From NCBI GenBank assembly GCA_905221615.1, contig CAJNDT010004879.1:310001-374000 (forward strand): 64,000 nucleotides of DNA. Reading direction: 5' to 3'. Position numbers and translations under genes: made by a program. Below, one piece after another: positions 1,446 through 36,092 of this stretch (positions are counted from its first letter, which is position 1; every line of letters starts with the position of its first letter). The stretch comes from Symbiodinium sp. CCMP2592. Its lineage: Eukaryota; Sar; Dinophyceae; Suessiales; Symbiodiniaceae. The notes under the pieces are model-generated. The model ran no database searches. It had not been told where the DNA came from and saw only the letters and a program-made list of their open reading frames with translations.

Positions 1446-1487
<42 letters not shown>

Positions 1488-3889: not shown

Positions 3890-5740
3890 AGAGAGCCGGA
3901 GAACAGAACAGAGCTGGGCGCGAGCCTACGGGTCGGGACAGCGGACGCCTAAAGCCAGAAAAAACGTAGCATCGTCTCCTTTGTCTTTGTTTTGGGGTTG
4001 AAATAGGCTGTGTCGAGAAAATTCTGATTGTTTTGTGGATCTTTTCCGGATTCGTAGCGAGGCGGGCTTCCTCGACTGAGGTGTAGCCCAAGTCGCAACT
4101 TGCCCACTCCATTCTACATCGAAATACCACTAACACCCACCGAACATCGCCAAACTCCATGGCATACGACCAAGCCGCGCCACCAGAAGTCCCATTCACA
4201 CAACAATCACAAAAATCCTACCTGCACATGGCCAACGCTCAGGACCTGTGGTCCTACCTGCAGTCACGCGCGAACATGAACTATCACGAAACCATACAGG
4301 CACCTCACAGGCGACCATTTGTTCATGCAGTTTTGCAAGCTGCCTGTGCAGACCGCCCTTTTGGCTCGTCCCCCCTGCCCTGCGTGCTCTGCAGGCCGAC
4401 AGAGAGAGACAGAGAGAGAGATCGCGGTTTGAATGTACTTGATCAGAGTTTCCGAACGACAAGCCGCAGTGCCTGTGGGTACCAACTGTGGGCCGACAAG
4501 ACCCCTGGACAAAAAGCAATTGGATCACTAGAATGACTTGCCCAACGCTGAAACACTGTCGGCTCTGCTGTGGCAGCTTTATAGAAGGTCGTTCCTTTGA
4601 AGACATGACCGCTGTGTCTTGCCACGGCATGAATGCTGATAGGACTGCCGGAAACAGTGTTGATGCAACGTCCTACCTCGTGTTTTGCAGTGGCTTTCAG
4701 TCTTCAGTACAGCTTCGTGCATATGCAGACAAGTGCACTTATACATGAGTATCAAGGAATTGTAATTCCAGCAAACCGGTCAAACAACTTGTCTGCTGTG
4801 CTGCAGGTTGACTTCAATATTTGGACGCAGCTGCCTCAGTCTGGTGCATCATGCGCAGCACCCAAGGGGCACACGTTGCTCAGGGATGGCAGCCGACCGG
4901 CAAAGACCAGTGCGGCGCCCATGGCGTTGGCAGGGCACACAGGCAGATGCCGACATTCCGAGTTCCCTTTTGCTAAAACAGCATGGCGCTAAAGTCTGTG
5001 CAGGCCCCCCAGCTTTCAGCGGAGAGCGTGCAGTGGCCGACAGTGGTTCGGCAGCAGGATGGAAGTCGTGACATGTTGTGCAGAGCATCCTGTAATGCAT
5101 TGTGGCAGCCCGCAGCACTGCACGTTTGAGCCAATTTAGTCTAATTATCAGCCTAACATCGCTTGCTCTGCTGTGTTGCTTGACTTCCTGCCGAGGAAGT
5201 GACAGTTATTGGGTGCGGAGCCCTGTGGGTCATGCAGTGCAATGCAGCACTCTGTCAGATGTCATTCCGAAGAGCAAAAGGACTAGGACCAGGATGTGTT
5301 GGTACCAGGCAATGATGTGACCTGCTTGATATCAAGGCGATTCGGCGGACCATTTGCAGACCATCGGCTCTCGGATTGCGAAAACCTCTGCACAGCACCA
5401 GTAGAGCAGCAACTGCATGCAACATCCAGCATATCAGGGCATGATGCCATCAGGGATCCATGCGGAGTCTCCGATACGGTGACAGCAGTGCACACCGATG
5501 GCTCGGATGATTCCAGCTTAGGCTGCGAACTTGCAGGCTAGCCTCCGATCCCGCCATTGCATGACAGCCTGCAAACTCCTCATGCAGATCTGGCAACATT
5601 CGCAAGTAGCTGGCCTAACAGCATGGCAGTGAGTAGCATGCATAAGAAATCATAACGATAACATGGGACGCTGGTCGAAACTTGGTGCCTGATTCGGGGT
5701 AGCCCGCGCGCTGATGGAGCAGCAGGCAAAGCAAAACATG
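3890..5740. other. No recognisable gene
   Basis: Several open frames occur on both strands, the longest plus-strand one from 4159 to 4536, which opens with a hydrophilic peptide rich in Gln, Ser and Ala. None has a family motif or a convincing exon series. Short GA repeats occur at 4398-4422. I could not tell intron from intergenic DNA here. Confidence 0.4.
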
Positions 5741-6380
5741 CGACACGATATATAGTACAGTGTACTATATGATATGATATGATATGATATGATGTGTCAC
5801 AGTACGACGATATGACAGAATAGAATGGGATATCGTATGGTATAATATGAGTATGGTATGGTATGGTATGAGACAATATGATATGATCTGATGTAATGAG
5901 ATTTGCCACAACACAGTGTAATATGACTTATCATAGTACAAGTTAACATGTTCTCATCTAACATAATATCACATAGTACAATATGATACATTCACACTAC
6001 TATAACATACTATAACTTTTCTCAAAATACAATACAATTGAGTTTCGGATGATATACGAACATACACAAAATTTAGCATAAGGTTACAACGCACAATAGA
6101 ATATGGCACAGTGACAGTGTATATACATATGTAGGGATTTGTGTAGGTATATGTATAGGTCTATGTCTATGTACTTATATACATATACAACATAATATAA
6201 AAAATGTTGTAGAACATGTGATGCAATAGGACATACGACAATACAGTAAAAGCTATGTTAATACAGAGAACATACAACAACATATAGCATAGTATGGTAT
6301 GATCTAACAGCATATAGCATGTTTTGATATAACATGAGAGACCCACCAACATAGAATACAACTTAATGCAGTATAATGTA
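5740..6380. repeat. AT-rich low-complexity tract (GATAT and TATGA words)
   Basis: The tract opens with a pentanucleotide GATAT array (about 5764-5795) and decays into mixed TATGA, ATATG and ACATA words. It resembles the AT-rich tract at 58.0-59.6 kb in style. It has no coding potential. Confidence 0.75.
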
Positions 6381-6597
6381 CAAGCTAGTACGATAGTGAT
6401 AGAGCATAAACAGATGTGACAAAACATAATGCCATTTGATGAAACAGAATACAAGATGATGAAGCACAAATTAACATGACATAGAAAAAGCATGCACCGC
6501 ATGAGCGTGACAAACACACAATGTGCACCAGACCAAAGAACAACACCCAGCACGCTGACAACCCACGCTGACAGCACACGTTGACAACACACGCACG

Positions 6598-6978
<381 letters not shown>

Positions 6979-7189
6979 GTGCAGGTCTCCAAGCTGAGCT
7001 TTGATAACATTGTGGCTGACTACATACCTGGCTATCTCAAAGCAATCGCACTCACTCTTGTCAAGGAAAATTGCAGGTACATGACTGAGCGTCCTCAGTC
7101 ACTTCCCTTCCAGTGACCTAGCTTCGTTGGATCAGGTCAGTCACTGGAAGCCTGATCCCCCAGCATTTACAGAATCCTTGGTAACAGGA

Positions 7190-7500
7190 TGTGCGCACGC
7201 ACACACACACACAAACAAACACACACTCCCACACCCCCACACCCCCACACCCCCACACCCCCACACCCCCGCACCCCCGCACCCGCGCACACCTACACAC
7301 CCACACACCCACACAGCGCACACCTACACACCCACACAGCCACACAGCCACACAACCATACACCCATACACCCACACACCGACCCAAAACCCCCACCCAC
7401 AGGCCCACGGACCCGCAGACCCACGGATCTGCACACCCACACGCCCCCACACCCAGACACCCACACACCCGGACACCCAGACACCCAGACACCCATGCAC
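7190..7500. repeat. Degenerate CACACCC-type minisatellite
   Basis: The tract is made of variants of CACACCC, CCCACA and CACAGCC. It is strongly strand-asymmetric, with almost no G on the + strand. The apparent proteins in it are repeat artefacts. It lies about 220 bp beyond the (AC)n tract and may have arisen from a similar CA core. Confidence 0.9.
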
Positions 7501-7579
7501 CGCTTTGCGCGCAGGGACGGGGTGGGATGCTGGGGAGACGTCTGTACACACATTCACATGCATGCACACACTCGCACAT

Positions 7580-8822
7580 AATTACAGATGCTCACAGGCA
7601 CGGACGTTCCACGAGCACACATAGAAAGACAGACGGACAGACAGACAGATGCAAGCGACATTAGCATAGTCACCAGGCGCGACAGCCGAAAAGAGCAAGA
7701 AGAGAGGCCGCCGAGGACGACGAGGGATCTGGCTACAAAGTAAGCATGTCGTGTGTATGATGCATGATCAGTGATGCTGGTTTGCACCTGATTCTCGTTC
7801 CGTGCAGGAACCTGCGGCAGAGGCACTGAGAGAGCGCCGCGTGCAGTGAGGGACTCTTGCCGCTTGGGAGTTTGATGGAGTTTGCGAGGCTGTCGACCCG
7901 AGCGCACAGGCGACTATCTTTGCGTTGCGGTGTGGCTGTGTGTTGTGTGTTTCGGCCGTGCATGCTCCAACTGAAAGGTCGTACAAGCTGAAGACGACAA
8001 TGACGAACCTGGCATCACCCGGGTGAATCCGGCATGTCCGGCTCTGCGTGCGCATGTGAGGGCCGTTTCCAGAAACGAAACAGCAGGCAGCGTCGTGTAG
8101 TCAGATCTTTATACCGTCGATGACATGTCAATGTGAGTGACATATGTGCTGAGAGCAGTTTCAGGGCGAAGCTGCAGCTTGGGCATGGAGCTTTGGTTCC
8201 GGCTTAAGTTTAGTTCGGACGCAAAGCTGAAACCTAACGCATCCAAAGCCAAAGCTTCCTTTTTGTTGTTCGGCTTCTCTGCAGAACTTCCTGGCCTCAG
8301 CTGGCTGAGCTGCGATCCGCTGGACTCCTTTGCAGGAAGTATTGCAGTGGTGATATAGCCAAAGCCTCTGGACGAGCACCGTGTCGGGTGGAACGAGGGC
8401 TTTCCCAAGTGATATGTATCAAGATGTTCATTTCTTGGCAGTTGGAGCGCTTGTGCGCAACAGTGGACCAGAAGGGTGCAGGCATTTCGAAGGTGTGCTG
8501 CTGAAGTGATGCGCGCCGAAGTCGGTACATGGACGAGTCAACACGTGCGCAGACCGACTTGAATGCACTTCTCGACCACGGCATCCATTGCGACGGAGCC
8601 CTGGGTCCTCGTCATGTGTTGATGCATTGAGCGAGCTACTTGTAGCAGCCGCAAATGATGCCAAGAATAGTCATACTTGTAAGTAGAATTGTTGTTTGGG
8701 GTCTCCTTTAGAGTATTCCCCATGGTTACTCTAAGAACTATCGTGTCATATCGTGTCCTATCCTGTCCTGGCTTGTGTCACACGTGGTGGCAGTTGTCCT
8801 GAGTCGACTTGAGCCGGCTGAG
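7580..8822. other. Upstream region of RAD51, possible first exons
   Basis: The N-terminal helix-hairpin-helix part of RAD51 must be encoded upstream of 8823. A weak candidate exon lies at about 8632-8668, where the + strand reads like the conserved helix preceding the first recognised exon (Leu-Leu-Val-Ala-Ala-Ala-Asn-Asp-Ala-Lys). I could not place the start codon. Nothing else in the stretch is recognisable. Confidence 0.3.
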
Positions 8823-11293
8823 GTTGAGACCATCGCATTCATGCCTTTGCGAAAGCTGTGACCGCCTCAACCTTGACTTTGCAGGCATTACTTTTCGTCT
8901 CGCTCTTCGCACCGAGGCATGAGGTCAAAGGAATCGGCGAAACCAAAGCTGCATCCTTGGATGAGTGTTGCTTGAAACTTTAAACGATGGGCAATTGCAC
9001 GTTACATGTCCGCTGGCCTGGACGGAACAGTCCAAAAGCGTGAGGCAGCCCGAATCCATGCAGCTGCAAAGCAGCTTGTTCCAATGCGCATGGTGGGTAC
9101 CACAGATGCAGAAGCATTCGACACTCGCAGACGGCAGCTGACAATTGAGGTCAGTGCTGCAGAAATGCTCCAGCTTCGGAAGAATATGGTCGGGGGCCGT
9201 GAAAAGATTGTGTTGGAATTTTCGTCGGCTTCGTTCCTTGGCAGGTTCAAATTACCACAGGATCAGTCAAGCTTGATAGCTTGTTGAAAGGAGGCGTAGA
9301 GTCATGCCGGCCTGTTGGGTTGCTGTATTGGCCCATCACGCTTCTACAGAGACTCGGACAACAGGCAGGCATGAGGCATGTTGATGTAAACTTCACTGCC
9401 TCATCAGATCATGGAGGTCTCTTTTCGCAACTCTGCAGTGACAGATGACTTCATGTGCAACGCAGGGACCCCTTTCTTGAGACCAAGAAGCAAGCAAGAG
9501 CACACTCGAGCAGCCACGTGCATCGGGATGTCGAGTGGTGTCAATTGGTCCAATGCTTTGTGCCAGGACCGGGCAAATCACGGAGGCCTCGCGGTGCAAT
9601 GCAGTGCATGGCGAACATTTTGGGCACTTGCCAGCCGCTCTTGCACAGATATTCGGTGAATTTCGTTGCGGCAAAACTCAGCTCTGTCCGGCGCCTACGC
9701 ATCAATAGCAACCCTTCATATGAATGTCAGCATGCAAGCACCACAAAGGACATGCCTGCAGGAGATTTTGTACAGACTCAGGCCACACGCTTTGCGTGGC
9801 ATGCCAGCTGCCGATCAGCCGGGGAGGCGGTGAGAGCAAGGCCTGCACAGCTCCTGCAACTCCTGCGCTGGTGATCAGAACCGCTCGTCTTGCCCAGGCC
9901 TTGTACATCGACACAGAGGTTGGTGCCCAGTGCTTTCTGATGCCTCAACCTGGGTTTCCTGGTCGAAGGGCACTTTCCGACCGGAAAGACTGGCAGACAT
10001 AGCCAAACGCTACGGTTTGAACGAAGAGGCGACCCGACCACCCTCTGCTTTTTCTGGTTGGGTTCGAAAACTGCACATTGGAGGACGTTCTCGAGAATGT
10101 TACATATGCGCGGGCCTACAATGCGGAACACCAGGACAGCGCAGATGATGTCACAGTGTTTGCGATCCATCACGCACGACAGTCTTTTGCGTCTTTGCCA
10201 CCTCCTGGTTTCGTTGTTCCAGCGAATCTGAAGGACAAGCTCCTTATAGAAGCTGCCAGTGTGTTCTGTGAGTCAAGATACGTCGAAGGCCCAGTGGCTG
10301 TGGGGCTCGTTGGCTTTCCTAGCAGATGGTGGGCCAAGGCAGTCCTGATCGTTGACAGTGCCACTGGGCTCTTTCGCACCGACTACAGTGGCAGGCAAGG
10401 CGATAGCATCGTTAGCACTGCTCATCACCGATTGCAGCTACTTCTGATACTGTCCGCATCAGACGATGTATCACACTCATTATCACTGTCATTCTTCTTG
10501 TCATGTCTGGTCGAGTTCTTGTGCCATCAGGGGAGAGCTCGCAGATCGCCAGCAGGCGCGAGTGGGTGTGTCGCTTGGGACAAATCGGGGCAGTCTCAGC
10601 AGCATGTGTCAACTTGTCAGCAGTGTATGGGTTGCAGGCACTGAACCGTTTTCTGCGGAAGCTGCAGCGCATAGCTGACGAGCACGGTGTTGCCGTCGTG
10701 ATCACGAACCAGGCAGGGTGTCAGAAAGAGGATGCAGGAGTTGAGCAAGTGAGCAAAGCCAAATTCAGCACCGGTCGCCAGGTGATGGCATCCCCAGAAA
10801 GTGGGCCAGCCGCTTACATGGGACCTCAGGCTGGGACGACGATTTCTAACTCCTTTACGAGAATTACTGGAGTAGGCCTTTAGGATTGGATAAAGCGCCT
10901 GTGACGATTATTTCGGTTCTGAGTGGGAGAGTGCTGAGAATTCCTAAAATAATCCGTCACCTTCCAAAGCCGCACCGCGAAAGCAGCAGGTAAAGCCCAT
11001 CGGTGGCCACATCATCGGTCATGCAAGCCAGACACGCCTTTTCTTCCGGAAGGGCAAGGTGGTAGCATGATTGCTTGTATACTGGTTTCCGTGAAGCTGG
11101 TCTGAGAGCAGCATCCGGTGCAGGGAGAGACTCGTATTTGCAAAATTTACGACTCGTCTCGACCTCAGTCCTCAGTCGACGAGAGTACAACTTGATGGAA
11201 AGCCATGTGTGTTGGGGATGCCCCCCTCCGATGCATTTGGTGGCACGAGGCCGTCCTTGCCGGAAGGCGAAGCCATGTTCGCTATTGATGCAG
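8823..11293 (+). CDS. RAD51: RAD51 recombinase, intron-rich gene
   Basis: RAD51 forms the nucleoprotein filament that does homology search and strand exchange in recombinational repair. Segments align in order with the family: end of the N-terminal HhH domain (8823-8856, 8924-8947, 9045-9149), linker (9245-9300), Walker A GEFRCGKTQ (9649-9685), QLPISRGGGES (9782-9840), YIDTEGTFRPERL (9898-9918 plus 9969-10028), Walker B LIVDSATGLFRTDYSGR (10339-10394), VAVVITNQ (10638-10712), KPIGGHIIGHAS (10990-11058) and the IYDSPSLPEGEAMFAI tail (11124-11155 plus 11250-11293). Further exons: 9567-9585, 10084-10134, 10234-10281, 10531-10555 and 10782-10829. From 8924 on, the frame stays open across every junction and lengths match RAD51. 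GGGES, TEGTF and VITNQ favour RAD51 over DMC1. Walker A has Cys where Thr is usual. Donors are GT, GC and one GA. The start, the 8856-8923 junction and the last few codons are unresolved. Confidence 0.95.
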
Positions 11294-11299
11294 GCTGCT

Positions 11300-12160
11300 T
11301 CGGAGAGGGTCTGCCGATCCGTGCTTGTCCCTATGTCGTGCACCAGGTGGAATTGTGGACGCCCCTGATGGCAAGTGATCAGGAAGCTGCCGAGATTAGT
11401 GATGGGCTTAGATCTTATTCGCATCGTGGCAGCTGCTCCGTGATCGGACCGGCGTGGTGTTTCAGCACCGCTGGAGATGTGTAGGGTTTCCTTGCCAGTG
11501 TGCTTGGCAACCGTCGGCGTCTCAACCCTGCATTCAGTCCCCTGGCTTAGCACACCAGCCTCGGGTGAAGCTTCAGATAGGCAGCGACAGTTTCACGGTT
11601 CTCTAGCTCTAGCTGGCAACAATTGAAAGGCTTGGCAGCTGCCGGACGCATGCAGCAGACGCTGCATGTCAAGCCTGCACCTGCATCACACGGATTCGCT
11701 TGGATATCATGATGTACTGGCATTTACCATTGCAACTGTTGAATTATGAGGAGAAACATATCTGGACACAAGAGCTCATGGACATTGCAAGACTTAGTGA
11801 CTGTCCATGGCAGGGGGCGCTCGGGCAGCTTAATTAGTCAAAAATGCTTCGCACTTGTGGCTTGCAGCATGCATTACTTGTGGAGCTTCGTCCAGCACAC
11901 TGGGTGCCGTCAGCAAAGCTTGGTTCCTCTTCCGGGTCGTTTGCTTTTGGCTCCAACGAAGCCTCTGTGCTCGCGCTGGCCGACCGGCCAACCCCAAGCT
12001 TGCATTCCCGGATGTTTATGTCAGCTACGTGAAGCACGAGCAGAGATTTCAGCCGTTTAGCGAAGATACTACGTCATACCGTCTTTTCGCTCGTTGGAAG
12101 CAAGCTCATGTTGTCAGCTCGATCCGCCACGAGCCTGCTTACCAGGAGCAGGTTTATCAG
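11300..12160. other. RAD51 end to choline dehydrogenase start; nothing resolved
   Basis: The last residues of RAD51 and its stop should lie here. A possible final exon follows the CACACCAG at about 11545-11552, but the match to the family tail is poor. From about 11844 there are plus-strand frames that may belong to the leader or targeting region of the choline dehydrogenase gene. They have no motif I can name. Confidence 0.35.
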
Positions 12161-12164
12161 CAAT

Positions 12165-15100
12165 GCTGCAGGCCTGTCAGAAAGCGTTCCCTGTCAACAG
12201 CTGCTGCCAGTGAGTGCACTCACACCGTACGCCACAACCAAGGAGGCTATGACTATGTGATTGTTGGTGCTGGTTCGGCTGGTGCTGTTGTGGCCCATCG
12301 TCTTGTGAAAGACGCAGGCGCTAAAGCTCTTTTGCTGCAAGAGGGTGTCTTCAAAGTTTGAGGCTCATGTTGGGTTCCACGATGGCTCACGGCAGAACCA
12401 AGGTCCTCCTCATTGAGAACGGTACCAGCCATCAGGGTCGATGGGATTGGTGGAAGATCAACATGCCCGCCGCGCTGACTTTCAACTTGGCCAACGCCGC
12501 TTCGTAGCAGCGATCCGCTGTGGTGAGGCGGCCTTGTGGAGGCTTCGCCCTGCGTAGCCTATGTGTCGTCGCTTTGCGTCTGAGGCCAAGTACAACTGGG
12601 ACTTCTACACGGTTCCTCAACGGCACATGGATGGCCGACGCTTGCACCAGCCGCGTGGTCGAGCTCTGGGCGGGTCCTCGAGCCTCAACGCTATGGCCTA
12701 CGTGTGCCTTGGCTCGACTGCATCGGCTCGGCTCGGACAAGCTTGAAGATCTCTGTTCTCGAAATTTCATTGCTCATTTGGCAACGTGCCAGGAGAGGCC
12801 ACGCACTTGACTACGAGCGCTGGGCACAGGAAATCGGTGAGGGTGGTCATGCCTGGGCCTACAGGACAGACATCCTACTTGTAGAGTTCTTGAAGGGCTG
12901 CCAGGCAGATGCGTGCAGCATCCCGAGCGAGTCAGTGGATGCAACAGAGCGCAACACGCAGGAGCATCCTGCCGTACTATCGCAAAGCACAGACTCATCA
13001 AGAGGGCGAATCTTTGTATCGTGGAGGCCGGTTCGACTTTCCGGCTGTGGCGAGACATCGTCTCACTGCTCTTATCTGACAGGTTCCGGACCACTTTCTG
13101 TGACTCGTCGTAGAACACCTGCAGTGGCGGCCATCAACGATGCCTTCATTGCCGCCGGTGAGCAGGTTCCTCTCGAAGTGAACAGTGCACCAAGTTGCAA
13201 CTTTCAGAGTGTGGTGCCTCGGTGCCGGCAAGGCTGGATACCCAAGGAGCAGCTCGTTTGTCGCGAAGCGCGGCCGGGCCGGGCGGACAGTACTTCAACC
13301 CTTCCCCTCGATCGCCAGGACCGAAGACATGAACGGCTTTCAGCAGGAAGGATTCGGACAAATGGACATGACAGTAACGTCTTGCTCTCAAGAACTGTGT
13401 CAGTCGGGATTGCATTGTGTTCAAGCCATCTGCAACTGAGGCCGGATGGCAAGCGAGCAAGTACCTGGGAATGCTATCTGAGACCGCTCATGTATCCCAA
13501 GAACTCAGAGGCAGCGGGAGAATATTGTGAGCAGATCATGTGTGGCAGCTACATCTTGCAGAGTTGCGCTGCAGTCCTTCGCCGTTTCATCATGAGGACG
13601 ACGCGGCTGGAAAACGACTCAAGGCTTTGCTTTACCCGACCTTCCGCAAACTTCAAAGGAAGCTATTGCTGTTGGCAGGTGATCACCAACCAGATGGCTG
13701 TACGCCTCATTTGCGAAGGTACCAAGGTGGTTGGGGTGGAAACCATTCCCTCTCCAAAGCCGAAGCGAGGCATGGCCGTGTGCGCACACACATGCACGCT
13801 ACCCTTCAGCCTTTCCTACGGAGGTGGCGGCTTTCACAGTGATTCCTCTGGAGTTGTGCAGCGCCACTTCGCTCGCGAGGAGGTCATCCTATCAGCAGGC
13901 CCCGTGCTGAGAATCCTCACGGCCGTAGCCGAAGTACTGTCGTCAGGTGCTGTTGGCTCCCCACAGCTTCTGATGACGAGTGGCATCGGTGATGCCAAGG
14001 CCATGTTGCCCCTCCAAAGTAATGTACTGGTACCAGAACGCCATTTGACATTCTCGGTGGGCAAGACCGCATGCAGCCAACCCAAAGTCTCGCAGCACAG
14101 ACTTCTGTCTTATACCATACCCTAGGTCGGAACACCGTAGGGGACTGTCTCAAAAAGCCGAAGCGGCTGTGACAACAGTTGAGAAGGAGCTTGTGATCGA
14201 CAATTTGTGGGGAAGGCGGCACGGAATGGGATGTGTGGTGGAGTAGGGTCCCGGATGCGACTCATCGCTAAGCAAGGGGAACTGGTTGTTCCCCATGTTC
14301 GCTTTTTCTCAGACGCCCTGAGACTTCGACACGTCAGATTTCAGCTCAGCTGTGATTGCAAGGAGCTTGAGCGTCTAGGACTTCCAGTGCTGCTTGACCA
14401 GCCAGCTGTGGGTCAGAATCTGCAAGATCACCTGGAATTCTACGTGCAGTACCTGCTCCTTGGCGAGGTGTTTCTTTGAGATGTCGCAAGTATATTGAAG
14501 TGAGATGTCCAGTCTTCAACACTCAGGAGCCGATACCCTTGCTCGCTGTATCCTTGGGCAGCAACCTTTCCGGGCCTTGGTATCCTCTCAAAGTACGCGT
14601 ACCGCCAACCATGGAGAGCCATTCATGCTGGAGTTCTCTGGTTCATGGCGGGTGCTGGCATTGGCTCTTCCAACCATTTCGAAGTGGGTGGTTTCATCAG
14701 ATCACGGCCTGGGATGCGCCACCCAGATCTGCAATATCATTTCATCCCTGGGATAGTAACTGGCCAGCTGGATTTCCTTCCAGAGCATGGCTATCAGGCT
14801 CACTGTGGCACAATGCGCCCGACAAGTCGTGGCACAGTTCAGCTCAGCAGTGGCAGCATTTTGGACGCACCTCTCATCGATCCTAACTTCCTCTCCACAG
14901 AGGAAGACCGAATAGATATGCGTGCTGGGCTACGATTGACAGTGGAGCTGATGGAGCAGAGCGCTCTGAGTGACTTCAAGCTGCGACGTTACGCGCCTGC
15001 CGATCTCGACTTGGACTCCGATGAGGCCGTCGATAGCTGGATCCGCTCCTCTAGTCACTCAGGCGGATTGCTGTTCGTCGAAACTCTAAACCCCGCGTCT

Positions 15101-15541
15101 GTGCCAGAAGTGTCCTTCCCTGATCTCCAGGATATCATCTGTCGTGCACTTGTGCGATGGGCAAAGTTGTGGACGCGACGGGCCGGGTTAACGGTCTGGA
15201 AAAGCTGCGCATAGTGGATGCATCCATAATGCCGTCCATGACCAGTGGAAACCTGAATGCGCAGCGACCTTAGCGGGGGTTGGAATGTAGTAGATGGCAT
15301 GTTGGAGAGAGTGAAACTGTCCTATGCAGCGTCACGCGTCAGTATGCTGCGTGCCCGAACGCCTGTTCGGCGGACCGGCCTTGCTGGCACAGCGTCCATA
15401 TGTGCGCGGAGGCCTACGATCATGATGGCAGAGAAGATCGCAGACGATATCTGTGGACGCGAGGCGCTTCCACCTGCCGAGGAGCGGCCACTAGCCGAAG
15501 CAAAGGCCAAGGAAAGGCGCAGGAACGCAGCGCAGTTACTT
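12165..15541 (+). CDS. CHDH: Choline dehydrogenase-like GMC oxidoreductase
   Basis: This FAD enzyme family oxidises choline towards betaine aldehyde, the first step to glycine betaine. The first clear exon (12165-12325) encodes the FAD-binding motif [18 protein letters not shown]. Next come VLLIENG (12403-12495), [17 protein letters not shown] (12585-12703) and [11 protein letters not shown] (from 12793). Further on are [12 protein letters not shown] (about 12965), [14 protein letters not shown] (13320-13370), VVGVE (about 13735), [17 protein letters not shown] (GMC signature, 13945-14000), VGQNLQDH (about 14410) and a substrate domain (14640-15060). The C-terminus has [19 protein letters not shown] (15178-15260) and [13 protein letters not shown] (from about 15412). 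The catalytic His lies in the region around 15055-15245 but I did not pin it. Introns begin with GC (12326, 12496) or GT (12704). A Ser-Thr-Ala-Ala stretch before the FAD motif may be a targeting leader. Other GMC alcohol oxidases are possible, but the whole pattern fits bacterial-type and mitochondrial choline dehydrogenase best. Confidence 0.88.
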
Positions 15542-23157: not shown

Positions 23158-23829
23158 GACACTCCTCCTCCTACTACTGCTACTGCTACTGCTCCTGCTG
23201 CTGCTGCTACTACTGCTGCTGCTGCCAAAGCTGCTACTGCTCCTGCTGCTGCTGCTGCTACTGCTACTACTACTTCTTCTTCTACTACTACTACTACTTC
23301 TACTACTACCGCTACTTACCACTACTTACCACTACTACTACTACTACTGCTACTACTACTACCACTACTACCACTACTACCACTACTACCACTACTACCA
23401 CTACTACCACTACTACCACTACTACCACTACTACGACTACGCCAAGAACTACAACGACAGCAACTACTACTAGTACCCAATAACAACAACTACTGCTACT
23501 ACTACTTACTAGTACTAGTACTAGTACTAGTACTAGTACTAGTACTACTAGTAGTACTAGTACTAGTACTAGTACTAGTACTAGTACTAGTACTAGTACT
23601 AGTACTAGTACTAGTACTAGTCTAGTACTAGTACTAGTACTAGTACTACTACTACTACTACTACTACTACCACTACACTACCACTACCACTACCACTTAC
23701 CACTACCACTACCACTACCACTACCACTACCACTACCACTACCACTACACTACCAATACTACCACTACCACTACCACTACACTACCGCTACCGCTACCGC
23801 TACCGCTACTACTACTACTACTACTACTG

Positions 23830-23889
<60 letters not shown>

Positions 23890-23892
23890 ATC

Positions 23893-23946
<54 letters not shown>

Positions 23947-24014
23947 GTCCTCCTGCTGCTGCTGCTGCTACTGCTGCTACTGCTAGTGCTATTACTGCTG
24001 CTAGTACTCTACTA
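23158..24014. repeat. Mosaic ACT / ACC / ACTAGT array
   Basis: About 850 bp of trinucleotide repeats in blocks: CTG/CTA mixtures, CACTAC, an ACTAGT hexamer block (about 23510-23643), CACTAC again, then ACT, then CTG. ACTAGT is a perfect palindrome, so that block can fold on itself. The Leu- and Thr-rich frames are artefacts. The last 28 bases (23987-24014) recur in the second array: a 22-mer at 30974-30995 and a 14-mer at 30197-30210. Confidence 0.97.
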
Positions 24015-24437
24015 TTTCAATTGAACGCTGTGCGAGCGGGCTCAGCACATAGCGGGCGATTGCCGCGGTGCACTCACATGGTGTGAAACTGACTCAGACC
24101 CTATAGCTGAACAGCCCAGGTCGAAGACCTTTGGGTGTTGGCGGCCTACAGGCTTCCAGCTAACTGGCAGTGGTCAGCCGAAGCAAGTTGGTAGGCTGCC
24201 AGGCATCAAGCTTCAGATTGTTGTGTGTACCTGAGCGAGGATAGTGATTATGCAGCACTAGTAGCAGAGGCACAGTTCTGCGACTGGCAGAAGGCGAGGC
24301 ATGTTTTTCTCTGACAGCGGCGGCAATCAGCAGAAAGGCCGTCAGTCCGTTCCGGAAGAAACGAAGTAGAAATGCAGGCATGGCCTCCGCATTGCACTGC
24401 ATAGGTTGCCATTGGCACCGGTGATCAAAGTTGGAGC

Positions 24438-27400
24438 TCACTGGTGCCAGGAGCGGCTGCCACTGGCCCCCGAGTCCGAGCCACGATTCCACCACCCTCC
24501 TCGGGTCCAGGCATCGCCGTCTCTGTAGCGCTTGTCTGTGTGAGACTGTGTCTCTTCACCAGAGCGCTTGTCACGCTGTTCACGCTGCTCACGTAGCTCG
24601 CGTTGACGATGCCATTGGTAGGTGGCCGTGTCGCCCTTGTTGTGTTCGATACGGAGCTTGCGGACAACTTGACCATCCCGAGGCTGGTAGAAGATGGCGC
24701 GATTTTGGCCACCACTCTTCCTGGAGGACTGGTCATAGATGCACTTGAAGGTGGAGGCCACGATCTCGAAGTTGTCATCCGTTTCGAGCAGTGCGCTCAT
24801 GTCCGGATGATCCCACATTTTCTGAAAGAGGGCGTGCACTATGCCATAGTAGGTCGTGGTGAACTTGAGCTCGGTGTAGCGATCATCTTGGCCAATGGAT
24901 AGTGTGAATTGGCCATTGGCCCCGACCATAAGCCGCGCTTGCGTGATGTCAAGCCAGTTGGCATCCTTGTCAGTGGCGACCTTCTTGATCGGGGCGAAGA
25001 TCCATGGCACCTTGCCCAGTGCCCGAAACCGATTGGTCCAGAGGTAGACCTGCTCGGAGGCCGTGAGGCCACCCACTATGGCCTGCTCCTTCATAATGGA
25101 AATGGTCGCGAAGGCATGAACCCACTCCAGCATCTGGTCAGACTGGCAGATGTGGATAATCTGATCTCGCTTTGGCAGTTGATTTGCCTCTTGCTCTGGA
25201 GAGGGGTTGACACTGTACTCCACCAGCTTGGTCGTAGTGACCGGTCCCTGGTATTTGACCTCTGCACGCGTAGAGGGAGCATCCACAGGGGAGGATGATG
25301 TGGTGTCAGCCGGGCCTGGGGTCTGCGGGACGGTCTCCTCGGTGGGGGCAGCCGTCGGAGTCACATTCTGGGCTGAGAATGCATTGAAAGGCCGATCACT
25401 TGTCTGGCCAGAGCCAGCAGACTTGTGTGACTGCGGTGTGCTCGCCGGCAGCATCGGAGTGTCTGGCGTGCCCACAGTGTCTTCCGCCCATCCCAACGTG
25501 GGAACAGCAGTGGCCTGTTTCTCATCCTTGATGTCCGCCTGTTGGTCATTGACCCCCTGTTCTTGTTTCACTGCAAGAGGCCGGTGGCCCTGCGCATGTG
25601 GGGTAGGACCTGGCGGAATGGGAGGGAGGCCGAGCCCAAAGCGTGCCTTAGACACCGACGCTGTGGGTCTCCACTGGGGCGGACGGTCCGCCGTGGGTTC
25701 TGGTGGTGGTGGAGCCTGGCCTGACGCTGCGATGGCTGCAGCTGAGGGAGGGTTTGCAGGCTCTGCCGGGCGCTGCGACCACATGCTGTTGCGAGGCGGA
25801 GGGCTTGGTGGCTCGGGCACTGATCGGTCGTGCCGGGATTGCATGAAGTGGTGTGTGACTCCCAACTCATTTGGGAACTTCAAGCGCCGACCGCCGCGCT
25901 CGCAGTAGCGGCAGGAAAGCCAGTCTGGATCTTCAGGGTGAAGGCAGAGGCCTCGGGGGATGTTGCGAAGGACAGCCTCGGCCGAAATGCCGTGGTACTG
26001 CGGCTCTTTCTCGACCGCCGCCATGATCGCGTCAAAATCACCCCGTTCGAGGCTGCTGAGCACGGTCTCGCCGACAACTCTGACGCCTGCATTGGTGAGC
26101 ATTGCTCCCGCCTGTGCTGAATGGGGTGCTGCAGAGGCAGCGCCACCGGCTTCAATGACCTCCGAGACGATTTGGGGCACGCTCTGCATGAGAGAGTTTT
26201 CATTTCTTTGAGCTGCCCTGGGGTCGCTCTTGAAGCCTTTTCGCCAGCTCCAGCATCGGGTGAATGCTACCCGAACCTGACCGCGGGTCTCAAAGTAGTG
26301 ACCGTCGGACTCAAGCTCTTTGGACTTGGTGAGCTGAGCTGAATGTCGCTCGCGGAGCAAATACACCGGTCCGAACTGTCGGGTCTGGTTCCATCCTGTC
26401 ACTGGGGTGTGGCCCATGTCGTGCGTGAGGAGCTTCCAAAGTTCCTTGCAGAAGATCATGTAGTCCAGGTTGGCGACCGAGGCAAGAATTTGCCTGCTGA
26501 AAGCGTGGTTTATAGCGCAGAGCATGAGGGGATGGCGCGGTTGTCCATAGATGATGCCCTGGAAAATGTGGTCATTTTTGACCCCAATGCCCATGATCAT
26601 GTACTCCTTGGGCAGAACCCCTTCCACTCCATTTGGGCAGTGCCCCAGCTCTTTGCTCTTGCGAACTTGGACATTGTCCCATTCTGAAGCTATGAGCCCT
26701 AAAATTTGATCGAAGGGCATTCGCAGCGCCATCTTGATATCAAGGTACAGGCCACCATGATAGTAGTGGTAGACGTACCTGAAGACATCAGCCTTGTGAG
26801 CAGGCTGCCTCAAACTTTTGATCAAGTGTTCTCCGCTGTCTCCAGCATGCACCTGAAGGGTCTCGAGCAAAATCTCGTCATTGCAGAAGGAGCGCTCGAA
26901 ATCAGCCAGGAATTCCCGGCACATGCTTTTGGGACCTGGGTGGTCATCGTGCATGTATGTCTGAAAAAGAGTGCGGGGCATTGGCCGGCGACTGACATAG
27001 GGTTCCAGGAATGGTCTGAGGGCCCATGCCTTGCCCGTGTGTCGAGCAGCCACCGCACCCACCTCAGACAGTGTCTCCGCGCTGCACAGGTCGAACGTGG
27101 CGTTCATCTCCTTGTGGACATTGTCCCCCTGGCAGTTCCATGAGCACACAACCAGAACATGGATCGCATTTGGCTTCAGTCGCCGCATCGTTTGAATTGA
27201 GCGGGATACCAGCAATCCAATGACGTGATCCGCCACCGTCGGTCGAAAGTGACAGTTATTTTGGTTGTATATTTGATCGACCAGGGGAGGAGGGCCTTGG
27301 AGGCTCATGATGGTCTCATCGCTGAGCTCGTACCGTCCCAGGCCATACTGATCCCTTAGCTCCGCGATCCAGTCGTAGGCCTTCTGCTTATGGGGTAACA

Positions 27401-27746
27401 AGCTTTGTCTGATGGGGATCAGGCGCACGCTAACCTCGTCATAGTAGTGATCACGGAGAAAATTGATCAATGCAGGGCTTTCCGCCGGGAAAGATCGCGT
27501 TTCTCCAAGGACGCGGATGAATTGCCAGGCCAGTACCTCCAACACCGCTGGGTTGGGTGGCTGCGCACCCGTGTACTCTGCTGTGAGAGTGGTACCCGGG
27601 CAGGAGATGACGTAGCCGTGCATTGCACCCCGAACCATGTCAACGATTCCGTAGGATTGGCCATTGGCCCCCTGCCATAACAAGTGTTGCAAGGTGCTGT
27701 CACTGAGCACCAAGAAGGGCTTCGGCGTGGTCGGTGTAGCTGCCAT
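24438..27746 (-). CDS. Large intronless protein with GT32-like glycosyltransferase region
   Basis: This 1,102-aa frame uses the ATG at 27746; the frame extends 9 codons upstream to a GTG. Residues 10-250 hold LVLSDSTLQ and IHVLVVCSWNCQGDN, spaced like blocks of SGNH-type esterases (weak). Residues about 255-490 resemble the sugar-binding DXD glycosyltransferase group (GT32/OCH1-like): RTLFQTYMHDDHPG, then KADVFRYVYHYYHGGLYLDIK at about 318-338. The usual second Asp of the DXD motif is Lys here (DIK), so activity is doubtful. Residues 613-640 form a possible zinc finger (Cys-x2-Cys ... His-x6-His). Residues about 640-860 are Pro/Ala/Thr-rich. A globular C-terminal part ends in an Arg/Glu/Trp-rich tail. 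No introns, and orientation opposite to its neighbours, suggest element cargo or a retrocopy. It may be a polyprotein. Confidence 0.8.
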   Translation of the reverse strand: MAATPTTPKPFLVLSDSTLQHLLWQGANGQSYGIVDMVRGAMHGYVISCPGTTLTAEYTGAQPPNPAVLEVLAWQFIRVLGETRSFPAESPALINFLRDHYYDEVSVRLIPIRQSLLPHKQKAYDWIAELRDQYGLGRYELSDETIMSLQGPPPLVDQIYNQNNCHFRPTVADHVIGLLVSRSIQTMRRLKPNAIHVLVVCSWNCQGDNVHKEMNATFDLCSAETLSEVGAVAARHTGKAWALRPFLEPYVSRRPMPRTLFQTYMHDDHPGPKSMCREFLADFERSFCNDEILLETLQVHAGDSGEHLIKSLRQPAHKADVFRYVYHYYHGGLYLDIKMALRMPFDQILGLIASEWDNVQVRKSKELGHCPNGVEGVLPKEYMIMGIGVKNDHIFQGIIYGQPRHPLMLCAINHAFSRQILASVANLDYMIFCKELWKLLTHDMGHTPVTGWNQTRQFGPVYLLRERHSAQLTKSKELESDGHYFETRGQVRVAFTRCWSWRKGFKSDPRAAQRNENSLMQSVPQIVSEVIEAGGAASAAPHSAQAGAMLTNAGVRVVGETVLSSLERGDFDAIMAAVEKEPQYHGISAEAVLRNIPRGLCLHPEDPDWLSCRYCERGGRRLKFPNELGVTHHFMQSRHDRSVPEPPSPPPRNSMWSQRPAEPANPPSAAAIAASGQAPPPPEPTADRPPQWRPTASVSKARFGLGLPPIPPGPTPHAQGHRPLAVKQEQGVNDQQADIKDEKQATAVPTLGWAEDTVGTPDTPMLPASTPQSHKSAGSGQTSDRPFNAFSAQNVTPTAAPTEETVPQTPGPADTTSSSPVDAPSTRAEVKYQGPVTTTKLVEYSVNPSPEQEANQLPKRDQIIHICQSDQMLEWVHAFATISIMKEQAIVGGLTASEQVYLWTNRFRALGKVPWIFAPIKKVATDKDANWLDITQARLMVGANGQFTLSIGQDDRYTELKFTTTYYGIVHALFQKMWDHPDMSALLETDDNFEIVASTFKCIYDQSSRKSGGQNRAIFYQPRDGQVVRKLRIEHNKGDTATYQWHRQRELREQREQRDKRSGEETQSHTDKRYRDGDAWTRGGWWNRGSDSGASGSRSWHQ

Positions 27747-27779
27747 GCCCAGTTGCCAGTGCTCGTTGAGCACCGCGCC

Positions 27780-28341
27780 CTTACTAGGCTGAGGGAAAGT
27801 GAAGTGGTGAGGAACTGCGCAGGAATGTCAGAGCTGTAGCCTAGGGCAGAGCATGCTGCAATGTTCTAAAGTCTGAGCCCTGAGCCTTCTGCTTTGTGTG
27901 TTGTTATGCTTGATGCCTTCAGTGATCTTGAGCCCGGCGGCGCAGCAGGAAAGCTGCAAATGCATTCACGCTGAGGCAGCGCTGCAGAGTCAGCTTTGCT
28001 TGTGCGAGTGGGCAGGGGCACTGGTCCGGCCATGCCAGAAGGTCGGCGTCAGCAGGGGCAGCCTGAGGGCATCGTCGGACCTTAGAGGCGATATGCCAGC
28101 ATCAGTAGCAGTAGACATGAGCGATCCGTGTGTCTCTCGCTGGCAGAGAAGCTGTGTGTATCTGCCGTCTTTTCAGGTCACCGAGCCTCCAGGGAGGGTG
28201 TCGGCAGCTGAGGCTGTTGGTCAAAATTTATTGAGCTATTGGACGTGCTTCAGTCCGGCTCAGAGAGGGCGTTCAGCAGCCTCCGTAGCTTGAGCTGAAA
28301 GCCTGCTGGGCATTGCCCCCATGCCAGCGCATTGCTATACA
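27780..28341. other. Spacer between the two minus-strand ORFs
   Basis: No motif was found on either strand. The plus-strand frame at 27898-28293 is probably a shadow of non-coding DNA. The spacer may hold the 3' end of the HxD ORF transcript and the 5' end of the glycosyltransferase ORF. Confidence 0.4.
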
Positions 28342-29291
28342 TCAGCTGTGCTGCCGTTGAAAGCTAGAGGAGCTTGTAGCTGTGCGACGTACCTCGAAAC
28401 CTGAGTACTTCAGGTACAGAGCGGAATGCGCGGAGAGCTTGTCCGCATCTCGGATGTGATAAGTACCGAGTATGAGTCTGCGTCCCGTCCATGGCAGTAC
28501 CAGGTGTCGGCGTGAGGCATCAAAACTAAGGTAGGGCAAGGTCACGGGGAGAACTTGTCCTCTGGGTCCGTCGGAGTCCAACAGGTAATCCCCGGCGTTG
28601 TCCTCCACGAAGAGGTGGCCGCCCTCGAAGTTGGAGAGAGGGATCAGGATGTTGTTCACCCCTTGTTGATTGTTGTCGGTGTGCAATCCAGAGGCCATAT
28701 TTCGTGCCAGGAATAGAGTCGTGCGTGGATGGCGTCCGGCCATGGTGTGCACAACCGTGTTGAGGAGACACGTCGCCATCGGAAACCGATGCGTTGGTGT
28801 CCTCAGACCGGCCAGTGGCCCCTGCTGGTATGCGCCGAATGTGACAATCCGCTGGTCAGCAGACTGTGGCAGTGCCACCGATGCATTGCGACAGGCAGAG
28901 GTGGTAGGCATAGTGGCATAGTGTCCAGCAGGGCATCCAGTTGCTCGAAGGTGACCCACCTGCGATGTAGGTAGTCCGCCGCGGCCTGTTCGACTGCACA
29001 TAGGGTGAATTTGTGCTCCATTTCATCCATGTCAGGAGGGAGATGTAGGCATATGCCTGGTGCCTGCGCCTGTGGAGCGTATAGGCTCAGGGCTGAACAG
29101 ACGGAGCCCTGTCGTTCCTCCTCTTGTGCCGCGTCCTCGTCAGTCGTCGGAAGGGTCGACCGAAGGGTGCGTTGAGCAGTTGGCATCGTGAGTGTCGGGC
29201 GACGGCATTTTCGTGCCGGTTCGGGGACCTCCTCGTCAGATTCGTCCAGGTCCATGGGGATACATCCCGAGCTGCTACGGAGCCTCCACAT
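28342..29291 (-). pseudogene. Frameshifted HxD...H (2OG-Fe(II) oxygenase-like) ORF
   Basis: Two overlapping minus-strand frames look like one protein. The first (29291 to about 28930) is acidic then globular: DLDESDEEVPEPARKCRR and LHRRWVTFEQLDALLDTM. The second (about 28930 to 28342) gives RIVTFGAYQQGPLAGLRT, ARNMASGLHTDNNQQGVNN, LSNFEGGHLFVEDNAGDY and RRHLVLPWTGRRLILGTYH. The HTD, distal His and following Arg suit an Fe(II)/2-oxoglutarate dioxygenase core. I recall similar domains as abundant in dinoflagellate predicted proteins, often next to retroelement ORFs, but cannot verify that here. The frame change near 28930 is either a decay mutation, a sequencing error or programmed frameshifting. 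Confidence 0.6.
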
Positions 29292-29647
29292 CGCTAGGGG
29301 CAGCTGTTTGGCCTGAGCGTCCAGACCAGCTATCTGGGTCTGAGAGCCGACAAGTGTGAACAGGAATGATGGTATGAGAGGGTGACAGCCTAGTATCCGG
29401 TGTCAGATCCCAGCTGATTCTGCATTGATGGCGAAAGCATCACACTCAAACCGACACTCTGTTTCAATCCGAACTGCAACATGTGTAGCAGCGTCGTCTG
29501 AAAAGAAAATGGCCGTGATGATGTACAGCGGCGTGTGAGCCGACAGGCTCGTGGAGAAAGGAGAAAAGAGTTGAGTACCGGCCGATACAGCTCCAGCACG
29601 ACATTGTCGCCATCAGGATGACATGGGCGGACATTGTCCCAGCTGCG

Positions 29648-30172
29648 TTAGGGCGGTGGGGGTCTCGGGAATGGGCACTCTTCCAGGAAGCGATCTGGGT
29701 AGGCCTGCATATCCCCCGCGACTCCACGCAGCAAGTCCGCGGCAGTGTGAAGGCTTCGAGACCAATCCTCGATGGTGGTTTTTCGAGATCCTGGTGTGGG
29801 AGTCCTTGCGAGATCTCGAGCCACAAAAGCATCGCCAGACTGGAGCATGTGGCCCTTGGTGTCGAAGGGGACATCGCTGCCTCCTGAGGCTGCCATCGCT
29901 CGGAATCTGGCGTTCGGGTCGTAGACCTGAGCTTCCTTCATGACTATGTTAAAAGGAGGCGCTGATTCCGGTGGGTCAAAGGGAGCCTGCATGGGCTGGG
30001 GCGGGGGCTGGCGTTGGGCAGAAATTGTCTGCGAGGGGTCTTGGTCCTCCGCAGGGCGGGCGGGAGGTTCTCCCCAGATGCCTGGCAGCTCGGTAGAAGC
30101 ACGTGGGGGCTCCCGCTGCGGATTCGCTGACCCTTTGTCAGCTGGGACAGCTTCCATGGCGGGTCGGTTCAC
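29648..30172 (-). CDS. Proline-rich ORF at the element edge
   Basis: The frame encodes a low-complexity N-terminal half rich in Pro, Ala and Gln, then a short globular part (VYDPNARFRAMAASGGSDVPF, DWSRSLHTAADLLRGVAGDM). It ends in a Phe-Pro-Arg-Pro-rich tail. It stays open upstream of the first ATG up to the microsatellite junction at about 30196, so the true N-terminus may be missing. The region between its stop and 29291 has no clear frame. A Gag-like or linker role is possible but not shown. Confidence 0.45.
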   Translation of the reverse strand: MNRPAMEAVPADKGSANPQREPPRASTELPGIWGEPPARPAEDQDPSQTISAQRQPPPQPMQAPFDPPESAPPFNIVMKEAQVYDPNARFRAMAASGGSDVPFDTKGHMLQSGDAFVARDLARTPTPGSRKTTIEDWSRSLHTAADLLRGVAGDMQAYPDRFLEECPFPRPPPP

Positions 30173-30196
30173 AGGAGAGGTGGGAGATGGAGGCGA

Positions 30197-30228
30197 CTAG
30201 TACTCTACTACGACTACTACTACGACGA

Positions 30229-30259
<31 letters not shown>

Positions 30260-30310
30260 GACTACTACTACTACTCCTACTGCGACTGCTACTGGGTTGC
30301 GCGCCTCCCG
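30197..30310. repeat. ACT/ACG trinucleotide array at the element edge
   Basis: The array starts with the 14-mer shared with 24001-24014 and continues as CTACTA, CGACGA and CTACTA blocks. It is followed by unique sequence with GGCGCC-type palindromes near 30299-30320. Confidence 0.9.
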
Positions 30311-34427: not shown

Positions 34428-36092
34428 ATGATGTTGGCGCACCTAAGATGCAGTAAGGAGAGGCTCAGTCCGGCTAGCAGCTTCTTGCTGTCCGTTTTGG
34501 CAAGGCAGCTGTGCTGCATCAGCGCTATCGAGGGCATTGACATGGGCCTGTTGCCGGCAGTGACCTTTGCTCTTCAGCACGACCTCCAGCTGAAACTTCC
34601 GCAGATTGGATCGATGAGCTTGGCGCAGTCAGTGGCGCAGGCCCTTGGAGCACCTGTATGGGGTGTGTTGGCAGACAGAAAAGTAGCCCGGCGAAAGACC
34701 CTGCTTGCTATTGGTGCCTTCTTTCAAGGTCTTTGCACCATAGCTTTGGGTTGGACAGAGAACTTGGCCATGATGATCATCATTCGATCTATCAACGGGG
34801 CTATGCTTGCAGGTTTGAGGCCTGTTTGCGTCGGAATCATTGCCGACACCACATCAGAGCTTTCGCGCGGCAAGATCTATGGTTACCTACAGCTTAGCGT
34901 GACAGCTGGCATGATGGTTGCCACTTCGGTTGGTACACCAATGGCTAGCGCCTCGATTTGCGGGGTTCAGGGATGGCGAATAGTCTTTGCCCTCGTAGGA
35001 GCCTTTGCTATCTTCACGTCTTTGCTCATCTCCGTCTTCATGTTCGAGGCAAGACACGAAAGAACCTGGAACAAGGAAAGTCGCAAGCGATGCAGCGGAG
35101 TCACCCAGGAGTTTGCAAAGTTCTTCGGCTACTTCCGCAAGCCAACTTTCGTCTGCCTCATCGGACAGGGGCTGTTTGGAGCCATTCCTTGGAATGCGTT
35201 CAACTATTCCACTCTCTATTTTCAAGTGGTCGGGCTACCGGAAGCTCGTGCCGCCTCGCTAACGACTGCATTTCAGGCTTGCTGTGGCATTGGAAACGTT
35301 CTTGGAGGCCAGGCCCTGTAGAGTCCATTCCGAATGCAGCCTTATCGAACAGGGACATATTCCAGACATGACATAGCAATCGGAATATGACCCCACTCTC
35401 GCCTTTACCCCGGGATTTAGTATTTGCATTGACAGTGGCGTTGGTGTCCCTGAGGTTACATCGGTGATGCTTTGGCAAGGAGGTGTCCTGAACACGGGCG
35501 CGCCTTTACGGCGAACATGTCGGTCTCCTTGGGCATTCCCTGTGTCTTCCTGATCTACATGACCCAGCCGTCCGAGGACTATCAGTACATTTGGTACTTA
35601 TCTTTGCTGGTGCTCATGGGTCTGACAGCAACTTGGTGCTTGACAGGCGTGAACTTGCCATTGCTGTCAGAAATAGTCGATCCGGCATCACGGAGCGGCA
35701 TCATGGCATGGGAGAGTGCGATGGAGGGGGCGATCGCAGCCGTTGCGGGCAATGCAGCCGTGACATTCCTGGCTAGTAGTCTCTTTGGGTACGATCTGGT
35801 CGATGCGGATCCTTCCGATGCAGCACAAAGTCGGCACAATGCGGAATCGCTTGGCAAAGCTTTGGCTTTGACATCAGTGTTGCCATGGACCCTTTGCCTG
35901 ATCTGTTATATCTTCATGCATTGGGCATTCCCTTATGACAGGCGGATTATTCTGGCAGAAAGGGAGAGATACAGGGATCAGCAGGGCAGACTATTGACAG
36001 GTTCTACGATGGTCAGTGAGGATCAACTTGAACTCTGTCAAGAAGACGAGGAGGACGAGAACCTCGAATACCTGCCCTCTGTCGGCTGCTAG
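34428..36092 (+). CDS. Major facilitator superfamily transporter, two exons
   Basis: Exons 34428-35307 and 35455-36092 join in frame to 505 codons plus stop, a normal MFS length. The first exon begins MMLAHLRC and carries about six to seven hydrophobic segments. It shows the MFS signature after TM2 (GAPVWGVLADRKVARR), an Arg in TM4 (IIRSINGAMLAGLRP) and a charged middle loop (EARHERTWNKESRKRC). The join rebuilds LGGYIGDALARRCPEHGR, the second loop motif of the family. The second exon holds the remaining membrane segments and an acidic C-terminus (ELCQEDEEDENLEY). The 147-bp intron starts with GC and ends GAG|G. The layout resembles spinster-like and related eukaryotic transporters, but the substrate cannot be inferred. 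Earlier 5' exons are possible. Confidence 0.9.

Follow-up and report, generated by a model that had tools for sequence, protein, structure and literature searches.

How did a 6.2-kb block with enzyme-like open reading frames (ORFs) come to lie between two identical 14-bp words within simple repeat arrays of the dinoflagellate Symbiodinium sp. CCMP2592? The block occupies 24001 to 30210 of the window, by which we mean the whole 64,000-nucleotide stretch analysed (contig CAJNDT010004879.1, positions 310,001 to 374,000, forward strand). An earlier note on this DNA had viewed it as an undescribed mobile unit that carries cargo and contains no known mobility gene. The present study makes it very probable that the block is a 5′-truncated copy of a giant multi-ORF long interspersed nuclear element (LINE), moved by target-primed reverse transcription. 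The unit is mobile and no earlier description of it was found in the literature searched, but the 6.2 kb are not the whole of it. That no mobility gene is present is true of the window copy only for want of the first 8.2 kb of the element, where fuller copies hold an ORF for an endonuclease and reverse transcriptase.

A zero-mismatch search of the window returned two copies of CTAGTACTCTACTA, at 24001-24014 and 30197-30210, both on the plus strand and just where the earlier note had placed them. With up to three mismatches there were seven matches in the window against a shuffle mean of 2.31, and seven were reached in 1 of 100 shuffles. Since words close to CTAGTACTCTACTA are common around the arrays, the meaning of the pair has to be judged by its replication in other copies, and this replication holds. 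The bases flanking the pair differ, and thus the repeat is exactly 14 bp long. ACT-type arrays abut both ends of the block (23171-24014 and 30196-30293), as had been claimed, and on the element strand the word at 24001-24014 reads TAGTAGAGTACTAG, directly after a run of three As. The pair is best read as a target-site duplication, in line with the earlier proposal.

The genome search that the earlier note had called for, covering 1,098,105,373 bases in 5383 contigs, found many further copies with flanking duplications of their own, 13 to 16 bp long where measurable. The genome is that of a peridinin dinoflagellate, with 143 matches to the peridinin-chlorophyll protein family, a marker of this group, against none in 14 control genomes. 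All match counts are lower bounds, with only the best candidates scored and some rows being pieces of one copy. The glycosyltransferase-like protein of the window gave at least 44 match rows, 20 of them full-length at 96 to 100% identity (19 of the 20 free of stops), and a probe from the 5′ end of the block (window 29300-30196) gave at least 41 matches, 20 of which were retrieved, the window itself included. Upstream of the point corresponding to window 30196, the sequence continues in 19 of the 19 other copies retrieved, which are related to one another there; in three copies these upstream stretches hold one large ORF and further ORFs. A complete copy on C85, pieced together from three loci with concordant overlaps, measures 14,396 bp. 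With a probe from the 5′ end of the element, 40 matches were scored among 332 candidates, and in 25 of the 40 a 3′ end (the tail or the end of the glycosyltransferase-like ORF) lies 14.13 to 14.42 kb downstream, 427 bp being added to the distance where only the end of that ORF was known. Three others have a 3′ end at 12.6, 16.8 and 23.5 kb, and twelve have none among the matches listed, two of these twelve (C584 and C148) belonging to a short form discussed below. The tail probe gave 40 scored matches among 345 candidates.

The ends of the copies are those of a LINE. Across 38 3′ junctions, two of them from the short form, the conserved GCGTTCAATTG precedes a run of 2 to 7 As, behind which 32 junctions continue with TAG and the other six with TTG (3), GTAG (2) or TCG (1). 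All 22 of the 5′ ends read, out of the 40 matches, start with GCCGCCACGG after TAG-rich sequence, and the coding strand coincides with the TAG strand at every junction read. For 21 copies the two ends could be compared, and in 19 of these a script found a shared string of 8 to 40 bp. Non-repetitive duplications measure 13 bp (C3602 and C5252), 14 bp (C4983) and 15-16 bp (C4790), and partly repetitive ones 15 bp (C5198) and 15-16 bp (C85). Among six further tail loci, each retrieved as 600 bp, three are cut inside the piece at different points, one of them (L075) with a 13-bp duplication by eye, and three reach the edge of the piece. A constant 3′ end with an A-run, variable 5′ truncation and target-site duplications of variable length are therefore all present, as in LINEs. 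The earlier note had also suggested looking for poly(A) or long terminal repeats (LTRs); a short A-run does stand at the 3′ end, three As in the window copy, whereas no LTR was found in the C85 copy, where a comparison of the 1200 nt at either end gave just two inverted matches of 11 nt. Furthermore, a diverged copy (L030, synonymous divergence ~1.4) compared with C85 over the last 500 alignment columns shows 32 to 72% identity per 40-column window, and 87, 97 and 100% in the last 100 columns, the tail. Such retention of the tail while the rest of the 3′ untranslated region (UTR) diverged is the pattern expected of a cis-acting recognition site.

The 1649-aa ORF of the C85 copy matches RVT_1 (E 6e-22), Exo_endo_phos (E 3e-9) and UCH (E 6e-8), all above the Pfam cut-offs. 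It thus combines an APE-type endonuclease and a LINE-type reverse transcriptase (RT), both absent from the truncated window copy, with a USP (C19) peptidase that has the UCH domain and both of its boxes. Two C2H2-type patterns lie between the RT and the USP, and the motifs YADD (with the RT), GDFN, GNTCYVN and GHY are present, the latter two being the Cys and His boxes of the USP. In a PDB search, six of seven matches were LINE-1 ORF2p or R2, and the seventh (8c8j) is an RNA-directed DNA polymerase. The 229-aa ORF gave no match above a cut-off. For the 658-aa ORF, Pkinase scores 29.8 bits (E 5e-7; cut-off 31.7), and HGDVHADN...DYG is present; the kinase motifs (motif at residue 203) lie upstream of the part retained in the window copy, which hence lacks them. 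The 431-aa frame found no match in Pfam, PHROG, NCBIfam or PDB, and thus no family-level 2-oxoglutarate (2OG)-Fe(II) assignment, yet its HTD...H...R (HxD...H...R) pattern is invariant across 11 aligned copies; the label 2OG-oxygenase-like comes from this motif pattern and is meant as a lead. The glycosyltransferase-like ORF matches Gly_transf_sug (PF04488) above the cut-off in 9 of 9 members, but over just 40 residues, with the motif GGLYLDIK, where K replaces the second D of DXD. The window protein itself (24438-27773, 1111 aa from GTG) passes the cut-off at E 1.6e-5 in a Pfam scan of nine window ORFs. A resemblance of the first ~200 aa of this ORF to SGNH esterases, noticed by eye only, was set aside. 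In scans against PHROGs (four of the five ORFs) and NCBIfam (all five), the kinase hits were weak and a group II RT hit stayed below the cut-off; the RT protein had two weak hits to IraD, and the glycosyltransferase-like ORF a single weak hit of unknown function. No capsid, envelope or methyltransferase family was matched in the five ORFs with Pfam. The earlier note was right about enzyme-like cargo in the block, which retains the intact glycosyltransferase-like ORF, the frameshifted oxygenase-like ORF and the end of the kinase-like ORF.

Besides, the kinase-like ORF has more distant relatives in this genome, namely 26 match rows at 44-45% identity with near-equal scores, 23 of the 26 in a 434-aa open frame (C3957:18162-19220, C5239:76781-77839, C4951:529289-530344 and 23 others). 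These matches appear to be another multicopy family, whose kinase-like ORF is related to that of the LINE; a piece of 101 bp (L085) beside one of them was uninformative.

Selection was gauged by pairwise ratios of nonsynonymous to synonymous divergence (dN/dS, Nei-Gojobori). The glycosyltransferase-like ORF is under strong purifying selection, with dN/dS of ~0.1. Specifically, 36 pairs from 9 copies gave 0.05 to 0.23 overall and, for the 23 whose dS exceeds 0.5 (0.55-1.46), 0.08 to 0.11, the first 170 alignment columns being excluded for an array present there in one copy. Among 21 pairs of the oxygenase-like ORF, the 10 with dS of at least 0.47 gave 0.08 to 0.14 and the 11 closer ones 0.22 to 1.06 (1.06 at dS 0.01). 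The values of close pairs may be inflated by ~118 codons at the start of this frame that are probably non-coding. These ratios suggest that the glycosyltransferase-like ORF and the core of the oxygenase-like ORF are maintained. The evidence is weaker for the kinase-like ORF (21 pairs, 0.20-0.46 at dS 0.03-0.23). Single pairs gave 0.32 for the RT-USP ORF, with one of the two copies frameshifted, and 0.04 for the 229-aa ORF.

A shorter relative of the element resides in the same genome. Of 2030 candidates for the USP probe, 120 were scored, which gave at least 122 match rows. Among the matches listed, 34 rows have at least 95% identity, 21 of these in frames of 1646-1651 aa, and 18 have 81-83% identity in 1647-aa frames. 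On C63, the same tail ends 792 bp past the USP stop and the same 5′ end lies upstream, and C63 99200-101000 gave no significant match to the cargo; this form is a cargo-free LINE of ~6 kb, and C890 has the same tail. A probe from its 3′ end gave 40 scored matches among 690 candidates, and 30 of the 40 tails lie 700-900 bp past a USP stop and one at 688 bp, as measured against 48 of the 122 USP rows; seven of the 40 have no USP stop among these 48. The giant and short forms have their last 219 nt in common at 89.5% identity. The giant form, as the sequences indicate, is the same LINE with ~8.7 kb extra between the RT-USP ORF and the 3′ UTR; this would fit a gain by the giant form as well as a loss by the short form. 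In C242 and C578, the USP and the kinase-like ORF follow each other in the same order, 1.1-1.7 kb apart, at identities (USP / kinase-like) of 54% / 70% and 75% / 77-82%, respectively; both copies contain stops. Since order and spacing are kept in such degenerate copies, the arrangement is suggested to be old. In addition, short-form-type tails lie 9.6 and 8.5 kb past the USP stop at C975:60252-70813 and C323:152951-161935 instead of ~0.8 kb. Taken at first for further giant forms, these two gave no support to that reading: a 161-bp piece of C975 has no significant cargo match, and neither contig is among the 97 kinase-like matches. A short-form copy (USP and tail) also lies on the contig of the window, ~200 kb from it (C4873:111720-113523, minus).

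Among the loci examined, the glycosyltransferase-like ORF is uninterrupted over at least 95% in 23 of 30, the oxygenase-like ORF in 16 of 20 and the kinase-like ORF in 11 of 19. When 28 copies are compared over their last 3.6 kb, the best pairs are up to 99.97% identical. C5198 and C5252 are 99.92% identical and differ in their flanks on both sides, and near-identity of 99.9% despite unlike flanks speaks for recent activity in this genome. At locus L005 (C4246), the 5′ end of a second element stands directly behind the 3′ end after about ten Ts, in a head-to-tail arrangement.

Some observations weigh against an element of this kind. Most target sites are pure TAG runs, in which the length of a duplication is unmeasurable, and for two of the 21 copies with both ends read (C3013 and C546) the script reported no duplication, although C546 shows by eye a 15-bp duplication plus 5 extra bases. 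Single flanks are shared between C1691 and C3279, C3013 and C4983, C4892 and C5115, and C2135 and C4892 (5′ flank), so that duplication or assembly exchange occurred or is possible among those copies; the first three of these pairs are among the closest over the last 3.6 kb. The 3′ tail has no significant fold or stable stem-loop (z -0.14), the kinase-like ORF stays just below its cut-off and the oxygenase-like assignment depends on a motif.

How do other explanations fare in the light of these data? A self-contained, undescribed 6.2-kb transposon would account for the clean 14-bp duplication and for a block without RT, yet we consider it extremely unlikely: it is contradicted by the 19 of 19 other copies that run on upstream, and the 25 longest of the 194 inverted-repeat pairs of the window all lie within arrays, with no terminal inverted repeats among them. 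The cargo-free LINE with the same tail would rather suit cargo ORFs that form a separate non-autonomous element or a host cluster moved in trans, their joining to the RT-USP ORF being due to assembly or chance, and near-identical repeats can indeed misassemble and some flanks are common to two copies. That this explains the data is very doubtful, however, given the near-constant distance to the 3′ end in 25 of the 40 five-prime matches, on many contigs, and the order and spacing of USP and kinase-like ORF kept at 54-77% identity in C242 and C578. That the element is a virus, or an entity resembling a provirus, whose polymerase is of LINE type has hardly any probability in our view. Its kinase, oxygenase, glycosyltransferase and deubiquitinase set resembles that of large DNA viruses; in contrast, the five ORFs are without a capsid or envelope match in Pfam, the ends are LINE-type, and scans that reach close relatives only confirmed no viral-contig relatives for the glycosyltransferase, RT-USP and oxygenase-like ORFs.

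A truncated giant LINE would have arisen as follows. An RNA of the whole element would be made, and the APE domain would nick a TAG/CTA array on its CTA strand. The RT, presumably guided by the conserved 3′ tail, would copy the RNA from the nick, and second-strand steps would leave the target duplications. An early stop of copying would yield 5′-cut copies, and in the window copy it would have come after 6.2 kb. Spliced-leader trans-splicing of the long transcript into mRNAs is the likeliest guess for how five ORFs could be expressed. A spliced-leader relict at the 5′ end (GCC.....GGCTCA) was rejected, with 1520 of 5000 shuffles matching the leader equally well; this null result neither supports nor excludes trans-splicing. 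A first scan of 5′ ends for ribozymes and RNA families, with ~50 nt of element per piece, gave two low-complexity matches, and a scan of the C85 5′ end (L052 5600-6900) one match far below the cut-off (E 0.69). Because the best-tested extra enzymes are under purifying selection, we infer that they serve the element, be it in particle protection, modification or transport, or in handling host responses. Speculatively, the deubiquitinase, kinase-, oxygenase- and glycosyltransferase-like proteins might protect or steer the particle. A broader picture, for which we see somewhat less than an even chance, is a LINE of virus-like complexity: an autonomous, recently active 14.4-kb retrotransposon with five ORFs, whose four extra ORFs and RT-fused USP would be a selected kit for handling the host, with the spliced-leader trans-splicing by which dinoflagellates divide transcripts into single mRNAs permitting many genes, and the kinase-like ORF being a module common to another multicopy family.

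Table 1. Positions of features at the window locus and in the complete C85 copy.
Sequence	Feature	Position	Strand	Basis or extent
Window	ACT/TAG-type target array, element 3′ side	23171..24000	.	tandem repeat finder rows 23171-24014
Window	target-site duplication, 14 bp, element 3′ side	24001..24014	.	exact match to 30197-30210
Window	conserved LINE 3′ tail, ends AAA (TTT on plus strand)	24015..24110	-	tail search; last ~100 nt kept in diverged copies
Window	3′ UTR including tail	24015..24440	-	from stop of glycosyltransferase-like ORF to 3′ end
Window	glycosyltransferase-like ORF, uninterrupted; 1116 aa aligned to C85 copy	24438..27788	-	PF04488; full-length alignment 98.6%
Window	2OG-oxygenase-like ORF (~313 aa in other copies), frameshift near 28914	28342..29291	-	two pieces in two frames; motif only
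Window	kinase-like ORF, C-terminal 182 aa	29648..30196	-	alignment to residues 477-658
Window	5′ truncation point (position 8220 of the 14,396-bp C85 copy)	30196	-	
Window	target-site duplication, 14 bp, element 5′ side	30197..30210	.	exact match to 24001-24014
Window	ACT/CGA-type target array, element 5′ side	30211..30293	.	tandem repeat finder rows 30196-30293
C85 copy	APE endonuclease-RT-zinc finger-USP frame	287-5236		1649 aa (stop to stop)
C85 copy	229-aa ORF	5414-6103		stop to stop
C85 copy	kinase-like frame	6792-8768		658 aa (stop to stop)
C85 copy	2OG-oxygenase-like frame	8769-10064		431 aa open; probably internal ATG start, giving ~313 aa
C85 copy	glycosyltransferase-like frame	10619-13969		1116 aa (stop to stop)

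Two statements on strand in the earlier note stood in part. Everything within the block had been assigned to the minus strand, which applies to four of its five ORFs of at least 150 aa; the fifth (25207-25908) is on the plus strand, antisense within the largest minus ORF of the block. That all host genes are on the plus strand was spot-checked on the two clear host-type ORFs outside the block and is correct for both, the C-terminal part of a GMC oxidoreductase (14645-15214, E 8e-9) and an MFS transporter (34428-35321, E 1.4e-32). Elsewhere in the window, 1663-1921 has a 107-bp tandem unit with GATTGAGTTCAATC-type palindromes, and 6587-6975 consists of an AC dinucleotide repeat, nearly 390 bp long.

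A LINE is a known kind of element; what is new here is the 14.4-kb size, the RT-USP fusion and the four-ORF cargo. The literature searched, whose coverage leaves out most subscription papers and all preprints, yielded no account of a LINE with these genes. LINEs of Symbiodiniaceae have been called highly divergent and likely remnants of an ancient expansion (PMC8045281), and active LINE lineages have also been reported (PMC5890265). The closest precedent found is SymbioLINE-Dnmt, described in the available text of that report as Symbiodinium LINEs with a cytosine methyltransferase at Ka/Ks below 0.2 (PMC5890265). Both it and the present element are LINEs of dinoflagellates that have captured an enzyme on which purifying selection acts, and both have enzyme-free LINEs alongside. 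It is set apart by its description, in which a single enzyme ORF lies upstream of the RT ORF (PMC5890265). The present element, in contrast, has the USP within the RT ORF and four ORFs downstream, 14.4 kb in total, and no methyltransferase ORF upstream, where only 287 nt precede the RT-USP frame.

More restricted parallels exist with other LINEs, as far as the accessible parts of the respective papers go. NeSL, Utopia, Togen and HERO likewise have a narrow repeat target, and some carry a Ulp1-like cysteine protease in the RT protein, but with a restriction-like endonuclease, the protease at the N-terminus and no extra ORFs described there (PMC4640811); the present element has an APE endonuclease and a C-terminal USP. 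The conserved 3′ tail is shared with stringent-type LINEs (PMC4176376), unlike which no significant stem-loop is present here. LINEs with an ORF1p esterase also bear an accessory enzyme, though just one (PMC3905857).

The nearest giant belongs to another retroelement class. In the available part of a review, the eukaryotic retroelement giants are LTR and Penelope-like elements, and 3′ transduction by non-LTR elements rarely exceeds 1 kb in humans and 3 kb in mice (PMC6431247). Terminons, the giant Penelope-like elements of rotifers, are similarly giants of non-LTR type with several accessory ORFs, many 5′-truncated copies and a 3′ end adapted to a simple repeat (PMC6431247). They differ in having another RT class, no endonuclease, a telomeric location, and accessory ORFs that encode other enzymes and structural proteins, according to the same partial source (PMC6431247). 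The present LINE, on the other hand, carries ~8.7 kb extra with four ORFs behind its RT-USP ORF, with at least 25 copies of ~14.4 kb by coordinates. Furthermore, the genome also harbours its cargo-free sister, which ends in the same tail, and thus the effect of the cargo on mobility becomes testable.

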